Origin: Hymenobacter caeli
GTDB taxonomy: Bacteria > Bacteroidota > Bacteroidia > Cytophagales > Hymenobacteraceae
Reading direction: 5' to 3'
Assembly: GCF_013294115.1 (NCBI RefSeq)
Contig: NZ_JABSNP010000024.1
Location: forward strand, 1-64,000
DNA length: 64,000 bases
Each line of letters opens with the position of its first letter. Within the stretch, counting starts at the first letter, position 1. The position numbers and the translations under genes were made by a program. Positions 12,931-62,930 of this stretch are shown one piece after another. The notes under the pieces are model-generated. The model searched no databases and had not been told where the DNA came from. It was given only the letters and a program-made list of their open reading frames with translations.

Positions 12931-15900
12931 TTGCCCGATTCTCCCCACGCCCGCCTCGCGGCCCTTGCCCTCCCCGCCGCGCCGGCCGACCAGCTCCCGC
13001 GCCTGCGCAAGCTGCTGGAGGCCCTGCTGCGCCACGCCTGCCAGCAGCACAAGGCCCCGTTCAGCAACCTGAGCCAGGCCATCGGGTGGGCGGGCTTTGC
13101 CTTGGCGCTGCCCGAGGCGCTGCGCCACCGCTTGCAGGCCCTGCGCCTGGCCGCCAACCTGGTGCTGCACGAGAGCTACCCCGGCACCCCCGCCGAGGCC
13201 GCCGCCGGCTTCGGCGCCCTGGCCGGGCTGCTGGCCTTCCTGACGCCCGAAGCGTACACCGGCCCCTGGCCCGCCGGCGCGGCCGAAGCCCTGGCAAGCC
13301 CGCTGCTTGTGGCTGCCCCCGTGGCGGGGGCCGCGCTGCCCCCGGCCCCCGACGCGGCCGCGGTGTGGCGGGTGCACGTGCTGCACGTCGAGCTGGCCAC
13401 CGGGGTGCTCACCGTGGAGCTGGCCGCGCCGGCCGACGACCGGCCCGCGGGGCCCTTTGCCGTGCGGGTGCCCGCGGCCTACGACAACCTGCTGCCGCTG
13501 GCCGCCGCCCTGCACCCCGGCCTCAACCTCGTGGGGCCGGTGCGCCAGGCCGACGGCCACTACCTGCCGCGCCGCGTGGTGCTGGAGCCCGACTACCTGA
13601 TAAACGTGACCACGCTGGCCGAATGCGCCCTCAAGGACGGCACCGTGCCCGAGCTGGCCGTGCTGCACTCGTTTTTGCCCGATGAGGTGTCGCGCCCGCT
13701 GGCCGTGGGAAACCTGGTCAACATCCTGCTCGACGAGGAAGTGAGCCACGCGGCCCGGCAGTTAATAATTAACAATGAGCAGTTAGCAGTTGACAGTGAG
13801 CAGTTAACAGTGAGCAGTGCGCAGTTAACAGTTGACGGTGAGCGGTTAATAATTAGCAACGAGCCGCTGGTGATTAGTGGCGATGGAAAACAATTAACTC
13901 TTACTGCTGAAGACGGAGCCGCTGCCGTACCAGAAGCTGCCGGTGCTTCAGCAGCACCAGAAACCCGGGCACCAGGCACCAAACAACAGGTACCGGGCCC
14001 CGGGCCCCGGGCCCCGAAAGACTTCGACCTCGACCATTTCCTCAAGCACCGCCTGTTTCGGTCGGCCCCGCTGCTACTGAGCACGCTGCCCGAATTCCAG
14101 AGCCGTAATGGGGTGCCGGAATTGCTGAACGACCTGCGCCGCCACCACCGCACCCTGCGCGAAACCCGGCAGCAGGGCTTCGTGGCCGCCTCGCGCACCG
14201 GCTACCAGCAGCAGCCCCTGCGGCCGGCCGACTGCTTCCTGGAGCCGGCATTTCTGTCGGCCACCTACGGCCTGCAGGGGCGGCTCGACCTGCTGCACGA
14301 AAGCCCCACCGGCTACGACCTGGTGGAGCTGAAGAGCAGCACCCGCGTGCCCTTCGACCAGCCCTGGAGCAACCACGCGGCCCAGGCCCAGCTCTACCGC
14401 CTGCTGCTGGAATCGGTGTTCGGGGCCGACGGCGAAACGGCCGGGCGCGGGCGCACCAGCATCCTCTATTCCAACGCCGCCACCGGCCAGGCCCCCGTGC
14501 GGCGCGTGGACCACGACCCGGCGCTGGTGGACCGCCTGCTGGCCGTGCGCAACTACGTGGTGGGCACCGAGCTGCTGCTGGCCCGCTCGCCGGGCCCCGG
14601 CCACACCGCCGCCCTGCTGGCCCCCGTGCTGCGCCCCAACCTGGCGCTGCTGCCGCCCTTCACCCGCGAGAAGGCCGAGAAAGTGGCCAACACCTGGGCC
14701 GCCGCCGACGTCACGGAGCGGGCCTATTGCCTGGAAATCATCCGCTTCGGGGCCCGGGAGATGCGCCTCTCGCTGCTCGGCGACGACACCCGCCCCGGCG
14801 ACGCCGGCGGCCAGGCCGGCCTGTGGCGGCTCTCGGCCCAGCGCAAGCACCAGAACTTCAGCCTGCTCGACGGCCTGACCCTGCTCGAAGACCAGACCGA
14901 CGCCCCCGACGACGCCCGCGACGGCCTGGGCCCCCACCTCGTGCTGCAACGGGCCCCCGGGGGCCGCGAAGTCAACTTCCGCGCCGGCGACACGCTCATT
15001 CTCTACCCGCGGATGAAAGCCGTTGACTCAAAGCTGCTGGCTGAGGACGCTTCGGCGGATGAAAAAGCTAACAGCCAGCAGCTAACCGCTAACAGCTTAA
15101 GCATCCTGGACGCGCAAATCGTGAAGGTGACGCTGGCCGAAGACCTGGGGGCCGACGGCCGCGTGGTGCTGGCCGTGCGCAACCGCCGCATTGCCCCGCG
15201 CTACCTGCGCGGCCACTCGCACTGGGCTCTGGAGCCCGACACGTTCGACACGTTCCGGCGCGAGTGGGCAGGCTTGTCGGCCTTCCTGATGCTGCCGCCC
15301 GAGCGCCGGGGCCGCCTGCTGGCCCGCACCGCCCCGCGCCCGCCCGAAGGCTGGGCCCCCGCCGACGCCCCCGCCACCGACGCCGCCGAAGTGGTGCGCC
15401 GCGCCCTGGCTGCCCCCGACTGGTTCGTGCTCTGCGGGCCCCCCGGCACCGGCAAAACCCGCGCGGTGCTGCGCGAGCTGGCCGTGCAGCTGGTGGCCGC
15501 CGACCAGCAAACCCTACTGGCCGCCTACACCAACCGCGCCGTGGACGAAATCTGCGAGCAGCTGGTGGCCGCCGGGCTGCCCTTCATCCGCCTTGGCTCG
15601 CGGCTGAGCACGGCCCCCGCGTACCGCCCGTACCTGCTCGACAACATGATTCGGGACCTGCCCTCGCGCCAGACCGTGCGGGCCCGCCTCACCGGCACGC
15701 CGCTCTACGTGGGCACCATTGCCAGCCTGCTGGGCAAGCCGGAGCTGTTTTTGCTGAAGAGCTTTGACGTGGCAGTGGTGGACGAGGCCAGCCAGGTGCT
15801 GGAAGCGCCCATGCTGGCCCTGCTGGCCAAGGTGCGCAAGTTCGTCCTCATCGGCGACCACCGCCAGCTGCCCGCCGTGGTGGCCCAGGAGCCGGCCAGC

Positions 15901-16692
15901 AGCGCCGTGGCCCCCGGCGTGGCCGAGCTGCTGCGCCACGAGCTAGGCCTCACCAACCTGCGCAATTCCTACTTTGAACGCCTGTTCCGCCGGGCCGAGG
16001 CGCGCTGGCCCTACGCCCACGGCACGTTGGCCCGCCAGTACCGCGCCCACCAGGAGCTGGCCGCGCTGGTCAACGACGACTTCTACGGCGGTTTGCTGCG
16101 CAGCCCCGAGCCCTGGCAGGCCGTCAGCCTCAACCCCCACGCCTGGCCCCCGGCCGCCGATGCCTTCGGCGAAGCCCTGCGCCGCCAGCGCCTGGTGTTC
16201 GTGCCCACCCAGCGCCGGCCCGACGACCTGTCGCAGAAGGAATCGGGCCAGGAGGCCGACCTCGCGGCCCGCGCCGCCCTGGCCGTGGCCCGGGGCGAGG
16301 GCCCCCGCTTCGACCCCGCCACCAGCCTGGGCATCATCGCCAGCTACCGCAACCAGGCCGCCCGCATCCGCGCCCGCCTGGCCCAGCTGGCCCAGCAGCA
16401 CGATTTGCCCGCCCTGCTCCAGGTCAGCGTCGATACCGTGGAGCGCTACCAGGGCTCGCAGCGCGACGTCATCGTCGTCAGCTTCTGCTGCCACCACGAG
16501 CACCAGCTGGAAATGATGGTGTCGCCCGACGAAACCGGCCGGGTGGACCGCAAGCTGAACGTGGCCCTCACCCGGGCCCGCCAGCAGCTGGTGCTGCTCG
16601 GCAACGCCGAGGTGCTGGCCCGCGCCCCCCACCACGCCGCGCTGCTGGCCCGGGTGCGGGCCGCCGGCGGCTGGGTAGCGGCTGATTCGTAG
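12931..16692 (+). CDS. Dna2-like nuclease-helicase (PD-(D/E)XK plus SF1B helicase)
   Basis: A 1253-residue protein starting at TTG 12931 (no in-frame ATG is near). Residues 1-275 are a helical region of unknown type. A nuclease domain at about 375-520 has GLQGRLDLL (about 450), YDLVELKSST (about 465) and the QxxxY-like motif AQAQLYRLLL, the PD-(D/E)XK pattern of Cas4/RecB/Dna2. The helicase follows: Walker A LCGPPGTGKTRAVL (about 836), motif II VVDEASQVLEA (about 948), GDHRQLPAVV (about 974), RYQGSQRDVIVVSFC (about 1172), NVALTRARQQLVLLGN (about 1212). This order is that of eukaryotic Dna2, a flap- and resection nuclease, but I see no four-cysteine iron-sulphur site. Two stretches (about 277-328 and 697-725) are repeat-derived insertions. 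A repair or defence role is inference. Confidence 0.88.
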   Translation: MPDSPHARLAALALPAAPADQLPRLRKLLEALLRHACQQHKAPFSNLSQAIGWAGFALALPEALRHRLQALRLAANLVLHESYPGTPAEAAAGFGALAGLLAFLTPEAYTGPWPAGAAEALASPLLVAAPVAGAALPPAPDAAAVWRVHVLHVELATGVLTVELAAPADDRPAGPFAVRVPAAYDNLLPLAAALHPGLNLVGPVRQADGHYLPRRVVLEPDYLINVTTLAECALKDGTVPELAVLHSFLPDEVSRPLAVGNLVNILLDEEVSHAARQLIINNEQLAVDSEQLTVSSAQLTVDGERLIISNEPLVISGDGKQLTLTAEDGAAAVPEAAGASAAPETRAPGTKQQVPGPGPRAPKDFDLDHFLKHRLFRSAPLLLSTLPEFQSRNGVPELLNDLRRHHRTLRETRQQGFVAASRTGYQQQPLRPADCFLEPAFLSATYGLQGRLDLLHESPTGYDLVELKSSTRVPFDQPWSNHAAQAQLYRLLLESVFGADGETAGRGRTSILYSNAATGQAPVRRVDHDPALVDRLLAVRNYVVGTELLLARSPGPGHTAALLAPVLRPNLALLPPFTREKAEKVANTWAAADVTERAYCLEIIRFGAREMRLSLLGDDTRPGDAGGQAGLWRLSAQRKHQNFSLLDGLTLLEDQTDAPDDARDGLGPHLVLQRAPGGREVNFRAGDTLILYPRMKAVDSKLLAEDASADEKANSQQLTANSLSILDAQIVKVTLAEDLGADGRVVLAVRNRRIAPRYLRGHSHWALEPDTFDTFRREWAGLSAFLMLPPERRGRLLARTAPRPPEGWAPADAPATDAAEVVRRALAAPDWFVLCGPPGTGKTRAVLRELAVQLVAADQQTLLAAYTNRAVDEICEQLVAAGLPFIRLGSRLSTAPAYRPYLLDNMIRDLPSRQTVRARLTGTPLYVGTIASLLGKPELFLLKSFDVAVVDEASQVLEAPMLALLAKVRKFVLIGDHRQLPAVVAQEPASSAVAPGVAELLRHELGLTNLRNSYFERLFRRAEARWPYAHGTLARQYRAHQELAALVNDDFYGGLLRSPEPWQAVSLNPHAWPPAADAFGEALRRQRLVFVPTQRRPDDLSQKESGQEADLAARAALAVARGEGPRFDPATSLGIIASYRNQAARIRARLAQLAQQHDLPALLQVSVDTVERYQGSQRDVIVVSFCCHHEHQLEMMVSPDETGRVDRKLNVALTRARQQLVLLGNAEVLARAPHHAALLARVRAAGGWVAADS
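13759..13881 (+). repeat. In-frame heptamer repeat array inside the Dna2-like gene
   Basis: The DNA is a run of degenerate 7-bp units (CAGTTAG, CAGTTGA, CAGTGAG, CAGTTAA and variants). Three units make 21 bp, so the protein shows five 7-residue repeats over 13777-13881: EQLAVDS, EQLTVSS, AQLTVDG, ERLIISN, EPLVISG. It begins with a stretch encoding QLIINNEQ that is also found at the end of the sigma factor gene. GC content drops sharply. The insertion lies between the N-terminal region and the nuclease domain. Confidence 0.93.
15032..15097 (+). repeat. In-frame palindromic repeat inside the Dna2-like gene, copy of the alaS element
   Basis: Bases 15058-15097 match the alaS insertion (30467-30506) at 37 of 40 positions and are read in the same frame, giving DEKANSQQLTANS. 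The left arm has decayed: only AGCTGCTGGCTG at 15032-15043 still pairs with 15072-15083. It lies in the linker before the helicase domain. Confidence 0.93.
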
Positions 16693-50304: not shown

Positions 50305-50412
50305 GTCATGCTGAGCGGAGCGCAGCGGAGTCGAAGCATCTCTCCCGCGTTAGTAAACCCAATCGATTGGATTGCTTGCGCGGGAGAGATGCTTCACTAC
50401 GTTCAGCATGAC
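50305..50412. repeat. Palindromic element with GTCATGC ends
   Basis: Outer arms GTCATGCTGA (50305-50314) and TCAGCATGAC (50403-50412) and inner arms 50333-50349 with 50379-50395 (17 bp, GAAGCATCTCTCCCGCG) pair; a long hairpin with a bulge. The flanks (GTTGTTCGTTGTTAG near 50263 and the hairpin at 50428-50450) are heptamer units, so one family is nested around another. Confidence 0.9.
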
Positions 50413-50427
50413 GGTCTTAATTCGCTC

Positions 50428-60007: not shown

Positions 60008-61159
60008 CTAATTTGCAAACAGGCGGATGCCGAAGCTGACGACCTGCGTGTCGGGGCCCTGGCCGGCTTTGAAGAGCGGGTTCAGGTTGTACTTGGCGAA
60101 CAGGCTGAATTCGCCGTAGCCGACAACGGCTTGCAGGCCGTACTGGAAGTCTTCGAGGTTGTAGCTGTTGTGGTCCTTGTCCTTATAAGTAGTGCCGTCA
60201 GTGGTGTACTTGAGCTTGGTCCAGGAGCCGAGGCGGTAGCCCACGAAGCCCCCGGCGGCCAGCGAAAACGTGGGGTGATAGTGGGCGTCGTGCAGGTTCA
60301 GCCGGAGCATGAGCGGCAGGTTCACGGCGGCCGTGGCCAGCTTGGTTTTTTCGTACTGGCGGGTGGGGTCGGCTTCGCGCACCACACCCGTTACGCTGTT
60401 CTGGTTCACCCACTTGTCGTTGCCGTTCAACATGTAGTTGTTGAAGGCAAACTCAGGGCCCACCACCAGGAACACAGGGCTGTTTTTGCCGCCCAAGCGG
60501 TGCGAGTAGTCGAAGCCCAGGTTGACGTAGCGCGAGCCGCCGGGGCGCAGGTCCACGGCCGATTGGCCGACGCCGGGGTGCTGGTTGGCCAGGGCGTTCA
60601 GGCCCAGGTCGAACACGAAGTTGGTTACGCCTTGGCTGTTGCGCTCGTAAGTTTTGGCACCCACCGAGTCGCGGTGGGCTTCGCGCTCGGCACGGTTACG
60701 GCCCGGGGTGGGGTTAATTTTTACGCTCCGGTTGCCGTCGGCGTCGGTGTCGACCTTGATGCGGAAGGCCTTGTTCAGGGCCACGTCCACGCGCTTGGCG
60801 TTGGGGGTTTGCCGGTGGGTGGTGATGCGGATTTGCTCGGGCAGGCGCTGGCCGGGGGTGTCTTTGTCGGGGTAAAATTCCATCGTTACCTGCTCGGTTT
60901 TGGCCGTTTTGGCCGCTGCCTCGGCCTGGGCAATGTAGCCGGCGAGGCGGGTCGTGAGCGAATCAAGGTGGTACTTGGGCAGCTCGCGCAGCTGGGCCGC
61001 GTCGCGCACCAGCAGCGTGAGGGTGGCCTGGTTGGGCAGCCGCACCACGATGGTATCGGCGGGGGCGGGGGCCCCGGGCGGGCGGGCGGCGCGGGCCGTG
61101 GCAGGGGCGGCGGCGCAGGCGGCGGCGAGGAGGAGCAGGGCGAAGAAGGGGCGTTTCAT
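60008..61159 (-). CDS. Outer-membrane beta-barrel (porin family) protein
   Basis: A 383-residue exported protein with signal MKRPFFALLLLAAACAAAPA. After a helical N-terminal region (TIVVRLPNQATLTLLVRDAA and LPKYHLDSLTTRLAGYIAQA) it has a barrel with alternating strands (SRYVNLGFDYSHRLGGKNSP, FLVVGPEFAFNNYMLNG, and LFAKYNLNPLFKAGQGPD at the end). It is the third gene of the ECF sigma and anti-sigma cluster on the same strand, so it is probably a target or partner of that sigma system. Confidence 0.83.
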   Translation of the reverse strand: MKRPFFALLLLAAACAAAPATARAARPPGAPAPADTIVVRLPNQATLTLLVRDAAQLRELPKYHLDSLTTRLAGYIAQAEAAAKTAKTEQVTMEFYPDKDTPGQRLPEQIRITTHRQTPNAKRVDVALNKAFRIKVDTDADGNRSVKINPTPGRNRAEREAHRDSVGAKTYERNSQGVTNFVFDLGLNALANQHPGVGQSAVDLRPGGSRYVNLGFDYSHRLGGKNSPVFLVVGPEFAFNNYMLNGNDKWVNQNSVTGVVREADPTRQYEKTKLATAAVNLPLMLRLNLHDAHYHPTFSLAAGGFVGYRLGSWTKLKYTTDGTTYKDKDHNSYNLEDFQYGLQAVVGYGEFSLFAKYNLNPLFKAGQGPDTQVVSFGIRLFAN

Positions 61160-61185
61160 GGCGTTGGGGGCAGGCAATGGTAAGG

Positions 61186-62292
61186 TTAGAGTCGAATGGT
61201 GCGGGAAAGGGTGCGGCCGCCGAGGTTGGCTTGCAGCGTGAGGTTTTCGGGCAGGCCGGTGGCTTCGGCCAGGCTCACCCGCTCGCCCCGCACCACGTGG
61301 CGGGCCTGGCGGAGCAGCCCCCCCAGCACGCGGCGGCCAACGGGCCGGTCGTCGTCGTCGGAGAAGGTTTCGGCCGTCGCCGCCGCCACGGGGGCCGGGG
61401 CAGCGCTGCCCCGGCGGACTTCCACCTCAATCACCGCGCTGGCCGGCGCGGCGGTGGGGGTAGGGGCCACGGCCAGGGCCCCCGCGTCCAGGGGCTTCGG
61501 GCCGCGCACCGCCGGGGCTGGCGCGTCCGGGGCCCCGGACCGCGCCGGCCCCGGTCGGGCCGCTACTGAAGGGGAAACCGCCGCCCGTTTGGTGGCCGAT
61601 GAACCGCTAGATGCCGGCACCGCAAGCCGGGTTGCCTGGTGCGAAAAATTATTTTCAGCAGCGGCCAATGAAGTCGATTTCATGGCCCGCGCTGCGCGAG
61701 GACCCTCTTGGCCCGTGGCCGCCCGGGCAACCTGTGGCGCGGTAGTAGCCGGTGTGGCCGCGGTAGCCAGGGTGCCCTTGGGGGCCCCAGCCGTTGCATC
61801 CAAGGCATCTGCCGGGGCCCCAGTAGCGGCGGCTACGGCGTTTTGCTGGTTGGTTTTGCTCGTTCCACTAATCTCACTGGGGCGCAGGGGCCCAGCGGTG
61901 CCTTGCGTGCCGCGGGCTGAGGTGCGGGCCGCCAGCTCGGTGCCGGGGCGCAGGCCCGCGGCGTGGCGCCACAGCAGCCCGGCGCCGCCGGCTACCAGCA
62001 GCAGGGCCACCGCGGCGGCCAGGGCCCGGGGCCACCAGGCGGCCGCGCGCCGCGGGCGCGGCGGGCGCAGGTGCTCGTCTTCCAGCCGCTCCCAGAGGGC
62101 GCGGCCGGGCGGGGTGGCGTGGGCGGCCAGCCCGGCGCGGAACAGCTCGTCGAGGCGGGCGTCATCGGCGGCGGGTGGGGCCCCGGCGGCGTTGGTGGCA
62201 TCGGCCAGGCGGGCCCACAGCGCCGGGTCGGGCGGGGTGACGTGCCCGTCGAGGCCGTCGCGGAACAAGTTATCAATGTCTTCGGGAAGCAT
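61186..62292 (-). CDS. Putative anti-sigma factor, single-pass membrane protein
   Basis: A 368-residue protein. The cytosolic N-terminus holds two homologous motifs (DIDNLFRDGLDGHVTPPDPA and LDELFRAGLAAHATPPGRA), each ending in a tryptophan-rich LWxRL; this repeated unit is typical of Bacteroidota anti-sigma factors. One membrane helix follows (ALAAAVALLLVAGGAGLLW), then a long disordered Ala/Pro/Thr-rich periplasmic part. Start MLPEDIDNLF at 62292; the repeat upstream supplies an in-frame alternative start at 62331 (MSIAHCQLLIAKPM). It would hold the sigma factor inactive until an envelope signal. Confidence 0.82.
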   Translation of the reverse strand: MLPEDIDNLFRDGLDGHVTPPDPALWARLADATNAAGAPPAADDARLDELFRAGLAAHATPPGRALWERLEDEHLRPPRPRRAAAWWPRALAAAVALLLVAGGAGLLWRHAAGLRPGTELAARTSARGTQGTAGPLRPSEISGTSKTNQQNAVAAATGAPADALDATAGAPKGTLATAATPATTAPQVARAATGQEGPRAARAMKSTSLAAAENNFSHQATRLAVPASSGSSATKRAAVSPSVAARPGPARSGAPDAPAPAVRGPKPLDAGALAVAPTPTAAPASAVIEVEVRRGSAAPAPVAAATAETFSDDDDRPVGRRVLGGLLRQARHVVRGERVSLAEATGLPENLTLQANLGGRTLSRTIRL

Positions 62293-62330
62293 GGGTTTGG
62301 CAATTAGCAATTGACAATGAGCGATTGACA

Positions 62331-62414
62331 ATGAGCAGTGAACAATGAGTAGTGAGCCAGTAAGGCACCATTACTCATTGTTCACTGCTCATTATTAATT
62401 ATTAATTGATGCGT
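62331..62414 (-). repeat. Heptamer palindrome between the sigma and anti-sigma genes
   Basis: The arm 62331-62351 pairs perfectly with 62372-62392 (21 bp, loop 20). 7-bp units CAATTAG, CAATTGA, CAATGAG and CAGTGAA run from about 62301. On the minus strand 62382-62414 is the end of the sigma gene, giving the tail THQLIINNEQ; this peptide is also in the Dna2-like protein. Confidence 0.95.
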
Positions 62415-62930
62415 AACCCGGCGCTGCAACAGGGCCCGGGCCTTGCTGAGCTGCGACTTGCTGGTGCCCTCCGAAATGCCCAGCAGCGCGGCGATTTCCT
62501 GGTGGCCGTAGCCCTCCAGGGCGTAGAGGTTGAACACGGTGCGGTAGCCGGCGGGTAGCTCGGCCAGCAGGGCCAGCAGGTCGTCGGCCTGCAGCTGGGT
62601 ATCGGCCGTGGCGGGGGTGCTGGCCAGGTTTTCGGGCTGCGCGAAGTCGTCGAACGAGAGCGTGAGGGGCTCGCGGCGGCGCAGCTCCATCAGGGCCCGG
62701 TTCACCATGATGCGGCGCACCCAGCCCTCGAAGCTGCCCTCGCCGCGGTAAGTAGGCAGGGCCCGGAACATCTGGGCAAAGCCCAGCAGCAGGGCTTCTT
62801 CGGCGTCTTCGCGGCGCTTGAGGTAGCGGCGGCACACCGTGAGCATGAGGCCCGCCAGGCGCTCGTAAAGCTGGCGCTGGGCCCGGGGCTCGCCCCGCTG
62901 GCAGGCGGCAATGAGGTCGGCTTCGGTCAC
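62382..62930 (-). CDS. ECF-type RNA polymerase sigma factor
   Basis: A 182-residue sigma-70 factor, starting at GTG 62930 (MTEADLIAACQRGEPRAQRQ). Region 2: YLKRREDAEEALLLGFAQMF, YRGEGSFEGWVRRIMVNRAL. Region 4: LPAGYRTVFNLYALEGYGHQ and EIAALLGISEGTSKSQLSKA with RALLQRRV. The last nine residues (QLIINNEQ) come from the repeat and replace whatever the original end was; the repeat also provides the stop. It heads an operon with the anti-sigma and porin genes. Confidence 0.93.
   Translation of the reverse strand: MTEADLIAACQRGEPRAQRQLYERLAGLMLTVCRRYLKRREDAEEALLLGFAQMFRALPTYRGEGSFEGWVRRIMVNRALMELRRREPLTLSFDDFAQPENLASTPATADTQLQADDLLALLAELPAGYRTVFNLYALEGYGHQEIAALLGISEGTSKSQLSKARALLQRRVTHQLIINNEQ

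Follow-up and report, generated by a model that had tools for sequence, protein, structure and literature searches.

A heptamer repeat as the source of the C-terminus and stop codon of an ECF sigma factor in Hymenobacter caeli

Sequence comparison indicates that the last eight residues and the stop codon of an ECF sigma factor of Hymenobacter caeli are supplied by an inverted repeat made of seven-base units, and are not native to the gene. The tail is a side effect of a broader repeat class that has seldom been described, and the arm order and turnover of that class are a more interesting finding than the copy at the sigma/anti-sigma junction. By the window we mean the whole stretch of DNA analysed (64,000 nucleotides, contig C24, from a genome with 66% GC). 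Its relevant features are as follows:

62382–62930, minus strand: ECF sigma factor gene, 182 aa (ORF; Pfam Sigma70_r2 at residues 21–86 and Sigma70_r4_2 at 117–168, both above cut-off)
62382–62408, minus strand: repeat-coded end of the sigma gene, QLIINNEQ plus TGA stop (sequence and ORF translation; tail missing from homologues)
62368–62409, plus strand: F arm, whose complementary heptamers extend into the 3' end of the sigma gene (heptamer scan)
62330–62393, no strand assigned: near-perfect 24-bp stem (62330–62353 with 62370–62393) and its loop (repeat finding, RNA folding)
62300–62355, plus strand: R arm of tandem heptamers RHARTKA; on the minus strand it lies just upstream of the anti-sigma start (heptamer scan)
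61186–62292, minus strand: putative anti-sigma gene with native start ATG at 62292 (start and N-terminus MLPEDIDNLFRDGLDGH conserved in relatives beside the same sigma gene)
60008–61177, minus strand: gene of an outer-membrane beta-barrel protein, 3' of the sigma/anti-sigma pair (Pfam OMP_b-brl_2)
13758–13862, plus strand: R-type heptamer array, in frame, coding for QLIINNEQLAVDSEQLTVSSAQLTVDGERLIISNE in the linker of a Dna2-like helicase/nuclease encoded at 12931–16692 (heptamer scan, Pfam, translation)

Sigma-70 regions 2 and 4 were both found in the sigma gene product with Pfam and NCBIfam, as expected of an ECF sigma factor. Translation of the ORF at 62382–62930 (minus strand) ends in QRRVTHQLIINNEQ followed by the stop, also written as SKARALLQRRVTHQLIINNEQ and stop, and its last 27 nt (62408–62382) belong to the array of seven-base units. 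The codons CAA TTA ATA ATT AAT AAT GAG CAG TGA are all located within one heptamer arm of the inverted repeat, and the original prediction that QLIINNEQ and the stop codon are heptamer-encoded was thus borne out. The units of this junction copy are TCATTGT, CAATTGC and similar ones, and not the exact TAACTGA. RNA folding of the hairpin with its 24-bp stem gave −62.9 kcal/mol and a z-score of −5.7 against dinucleotide shuffles, and the search of Rfam 15 with the hairpin returned nothing above the gathering score, with sub-threshold hairpin matches only. Since the Pfam match to sigma region 4 stops at residue 168 and the repeat-coded tail lies outside known domains, the function of the sigma protein is probably unaltered.

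For the downstream gene, searches of Pfam and NCBIfam revealed no family, and hence no anti-sigma domain, above cut-off; it is designated as anti-sigma because of its conserved pairing and position with the sigma gene. The heptamer array stops 7 nt short of the ATG of this gene, a start-codon-proximal position of the TAACTGA type. The suggestion that the repeat offers the anti-sigma gene an alternative in-frame ATG at 62331 did not hold, the codon at this position being TTG. From the native ATG (62292) upstream to the TAA at 62373, the in-frame codons contain no ATG, with TTGs at 62331 and 62310, and the ATGs that do occur within the repeat (62392, 62378 and 62371) are all out of the anti-sigma frame; a start at a 62331 ATG was consequently ruled out.

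The origin of the sigma tail was assessed by comparison with about 55 other Hymenobacter junctions from two partly overlapping genome collections, in all of which QLIINNEQ was absent. The sequence after QRRV is strongly variable among these relatives: it reads GRAAAVAVGN in the congener G012, GRAAAVAVGS in H. coccineus and GQAAAVAY in H. nivis, QFSAITNN and variants of it in the next clade, and a longer tail ending with YATGRY in other relatives, whose sigma gene runs into the start of the anti-sigma gene. The metagenome-derived MAG 341R is the only relative with a comparable tail, NHQLTMST followed by the stop, likewise heptamer-coded (TCAATTGACGATGAGCACTTAG). Homologues therefore do not share the nine terminal positions, which could have spoken for a native tail, and the absence of QLIINNEQ together with the variability after QRRV shows the repeat to be the source of both tail and stop. 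The heptamer tails of the window and MAG 341R may be common by descent or may have originated twice. A native tail resembling the repeat by chance was rejected as extremely improbable: LIINN has a slight likeness to tails like QFSTIINN (IS2118, next clade), but the DNA keeps to the heptamer register and forms 24 bp with the other arm, heptamers are in excess genome-wide, and a heptamer array in another, unrelated gene yields the identical peptide.

The latter gene is that of the Dna2-like protein, where LIINNEQ is indeed encoded by the array at 13758–13862, as had been noticed earlier. Heptamer-like peptides with other letters occupy the linker in several of nine aligned relatives. The Dna2-like protein shows 93% identity to that of MAG 341R over residues 337–1252 and 77–79% to those of G012 and H. 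nivis, while the sigma factor is closest to that of G012. Such disagreement would be consistent with mosaic ancestry or transfer, and the genes imply no single branching order of the window's genome, G012, H. coccineus/H. nivis and MAG 341R.

The commonest layout of the junction, found in 15 of 29 relatives in one collection, has the sigma stop about 20 nt inside the anti-sigma gene, and gaps of 3–14 nt predominate in the next clade, against 89 nt in the window. The gap extends to 79 nt in G012 and 86 nt in H. coccineus, both with the exact TAACTGATAACTGA right before the anti-sigma ATG, and H. nivis has a gap of 24 nt without heptamers. For H. coccineus, the predicted fold pairs the downstream array with a heptamer-like stretch (GCAGTTAG) in which the sigma stop lies, and in MAG 341R the stop-bearing arm is likewise predicted to pair with the array preceding the start; among the five junctions folded, the window's alone was clearly better than shuffles. 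In G036, which is more distant, the anti-sigma start is likewise preceded by a heptamer array. The original prediction of an insertion at the junction was right in that a repeat is present, but too simple, as G012, H. coccineus and MAG 341R have arrays with other letters at the same place and H. nivis lacks them. A private recent insertion was ruled out on these grounds, and the junction would rather be a persistent or recurrent home of heptamers; a cleanly bordered empty site was not encountered at this locus. Since relatives mostly show an overlap or a gap of 3–14 nt, whereas the window has 89 nt and a strong hairpin, altered coupling of the two genes is plausible from distance and predicted structure.

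To place the junction copy in its genomic context, a census of heptamer arrays was based on pattern hits, on fetched stretches of the window's genome and on 1.2 Mb of G012. A three-heptamer pattern gave 92 matches in the window's genome versus five for the backwards control, a locally shuffled sister genome yielded 0–1 arrays, and exact three-heptamer matches ranged from 0 to about 200 among congeners. In total, 64 heptamer-array sites were placed, 38 in the fetched parts of the window's genome and 26 in G012. Two-armed elements made up 33 of the 64, and all 33 had the R-F order, i.e. 5'-RHARTKA arm followed by the complementary arm-3', with no F-R case. Exact patterns of equal information, applied to 61 Hymenobacter genomes, recovered the RF order at 17 distinct loci and the FR order at none (p about 1.5e-5, on the assumption of equal orders and independent loci; the loci of G005 and G020 are identical).

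Element ends are typically 0–10 nt from the flanking genes, so that the gap is filled, although these distances are approximate because genes were called with a crude purpose-made caller; with the same calls, gaps between divergent genes hold three of 58 elements versus 17% expected (p = 0.007). Arrays with a single arm are common; those of type R mostly adjoin the left gene, and most of those of type F adjoin the right one. The arms of an element match each other better than those of different elements do (19.1 within versus 11.3 between, with none of 10,000 permutations as high). The letters of the arms differ from copy to copy, and the cores of the 33 two-armed elements vary in sequence and in length (54–228 nt). 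Four sites compared with G012 carry heptamers of different letters in the two genomes, and a fifth (L102) is without heptamers in G012. Tails of about seven residues or more that are encoded by the repeat also end three other genes: two in the window's genome, with KQLTVSS and KQLTMSSE each followed by the stop, and one in G012, with SQLTISSEQ and its stop.

The two-armed form is not universal, as other congeners have long one-armed arrays, and a separate family in G045 shows F-F arrangements. Long one-armed arrays of near-uniform GAAGTGA were observed in G016 (14 copies at L248 1228–1325) and are a candidate for length variation between strains. Some cores were recognisable: a distinct palindromic repeat (GTCATGCTGAGCGCAGC... 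/ GCCATGCTGAACGCAGTG...), with further copies in G012, constitutes the core between heptamer arms at L070 1842–1988 and L091 2033–2136, and an ordinary bidirectional terminator (AAAAAAGGCCCGCTTG...CAAGCGGGCTTTTTT) does so at L093 1937–2021, which is resembled by a further element with a terminator-like core at G065:C177:8255–8312. Elsewhere in the window, the segment at about 50305–50418 had many matches in all five compared genomes, often on both strands at one place, and from this pattern looks like a high-copy palindromic repeat.

Taken as a whole, these data lead us to favour, with some reservation, the reading in which a fast-turning class of intergenic inverted repeats, probably maintained by slippage and template switching, spaced out a sigma/anti-sigma pair that was ancestrally overlapping or nearly so. 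What we term an RF element has A-rich heptamers (RHARTKA) in its 5' arm, complementary ones in its 3' arm and a variable core in between, and it fills the gap between genes. An A-rich-then-T-rich order is that of bidirectional terminators, and as a guess RF elements might grow out of terminator hairpins. Replication slippage would expand and shrink the heptamer arrays, and intrastrand template switching may copy one arm onto the other, thus preserving complementarity (compare the hairpins treated in the abstract of PMC8794818). Because both heptamer strands carry stop codons, a gene touched by an element at its 3' end terminates at the element border, acquiring a new stop and a short QL-rich tail. 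At the sigma locus the gain was the last eight residues and the stop, leaving an 89-nt spacer with the 24-bp hairpin; translational coupling may have become looser and the sigma to anti-sigma ratio changed, or the effect may be neutral. A bolder version, which we put forward tentatively and hold to be rather doubtful in full, is that RF elements form a distinct class arising from hairpin-templated replication in intergenic gaps and not from transposition, with an order fixed by the mechanism, and that by rewriting 3' ends and spacers they slowly re-tune gene pairs such as sigma/anti-sigma.

A non-autonomous, MITE-like transposon, i.e. a unit with heptamer terminal repeats that was inserted into the sigma/anti-sigma gap and moved by some transposase, is in our opinion unlikely, even though terminal inverted repeats, dozens of scattered copies, the fixed arm order and the lack of the element in H. 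nivis and most relatives would all suit it. The variable cores leave the 33 elements with no sequence shared from end to end, arm letters vary with each copy, lone R or F arrays are common, and the borders, read by eye only, displayed no obvious or consistent target duplications. A lower probability still is assigned to a selected regulatory RNA, whose hairpin would set translational coupling or mRNA decay and be kept by selection. Such a role would agree with the strong fold of the window's copy (z −5.7), with the predicted pairing of stop arm and start array in H. coccineus and MAG 341R despite other letters, and with TAACTGA units right before the start in G012 and H. coccineus, a position tied to translation (MacGregor 2015, PMC4679880). 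Against it stand the folding results, in which one junction of five, the window's, was clearly better than shuffles, and the heptamer-free junction of H. nivis; moreover, the same architecture occurs between convergent genes with no start codon nearby, which argues against a purpose specific to the sigma/anti-sigma pair.

That the copy acts on transcription as a terminator or attenuator between sigma and anti-sigma genes appears very improbable. The polarity of an A-rich and then a T-rich arm does recall bidirectional terminators, and two other elements (L093 and that of G065) possess terminator-like cores, but the stem in the window is AT-rich where a GC-rich one would be expected, no T-run follows it, and termination inside the pair would silence the anti-sigma gene. 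For want of a T-run, a terminator was ruled out for the window's copy.

The origin of bacterial heptamer repeats is unsettled in the literature we found. The strict arm order, gap filling and letter turnover make this question testable, because close Hymenobacter species provide before-and-after pairs, and the sigma/anti-sigma junction offers a clean case in which a repeat has altered both a protein end and the spacing of a regulatory pair. Our literature search on heptamer inverted repeats of Hymenobacter and Bacteroidetes identified MacGregor 2015 as the closest work, and in the open-licence literature we found neither a description of the two-armed, fixed-order, gap-filling form nor a paper on translational coupling of ECF and anti-sigma genes in Bacteroidetes.

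MacGregor 2015 (PMC4679880) reported mostly intergenic TAACTGA heptamers from Beggiatoaceae, Cyanobacteria and five Bacteroidetes. These heptamers frequently sit immediately ahead of a start codon, and one of their strands has stop codons in every frame; certain copies run over the stop of the preceding gene, and others are located in frame within ORFs. The Hymenobacter arrays are similarly tandem direct heptamers, mostly intergenic, and at the same junction G012 and H. coccineus have exact TAACTGA doublets (TAACTGATAACTGA), whereas the window's copy lacks the exact TAACTGA unit that defines this type. TAACTGA repeats run in direct orientation, and only one inverted case is given for the main genome (PMC4679880); in the Hymenobacter elements, by contrast, each of the two arms is a heptamer array, their R-F order is fixed, the units are degenerate, and the element fills the gap. 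Enterobacterial RU-1, RU-2 and RU-3 are small mobile repeats that give genes new C-termini (Delihas 2007, PMC2759123), and as there, the repeat described here takes the place of a gene's stop codon and extends the protein past its conserved domain by a new C-terminal peptide; together with MacGregor 2015, this makes stop capture a known kind of event. The RU repeats are, however, fixed-sequence units of 103–168 bp, unlike the Hymenobacter elements with their heptamer-array arms and no shared core. Template switching can, according to the abstract of PMC8794818, create and maintain hairpins whose arms are kept complementary by copying one from the other, as we propose for RF elements; that abstract deals with the stems of RNA structures and does not mention tandem heptamer arms. 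With MITEs and REP palindromes, finally, the elements have in common that they are short, dispersed, intergenic inverted repeats, and they differ from both in the lack of a shared core and of a demonstrated target duplication and in arms of tandem heptamers that are specific to each copy.
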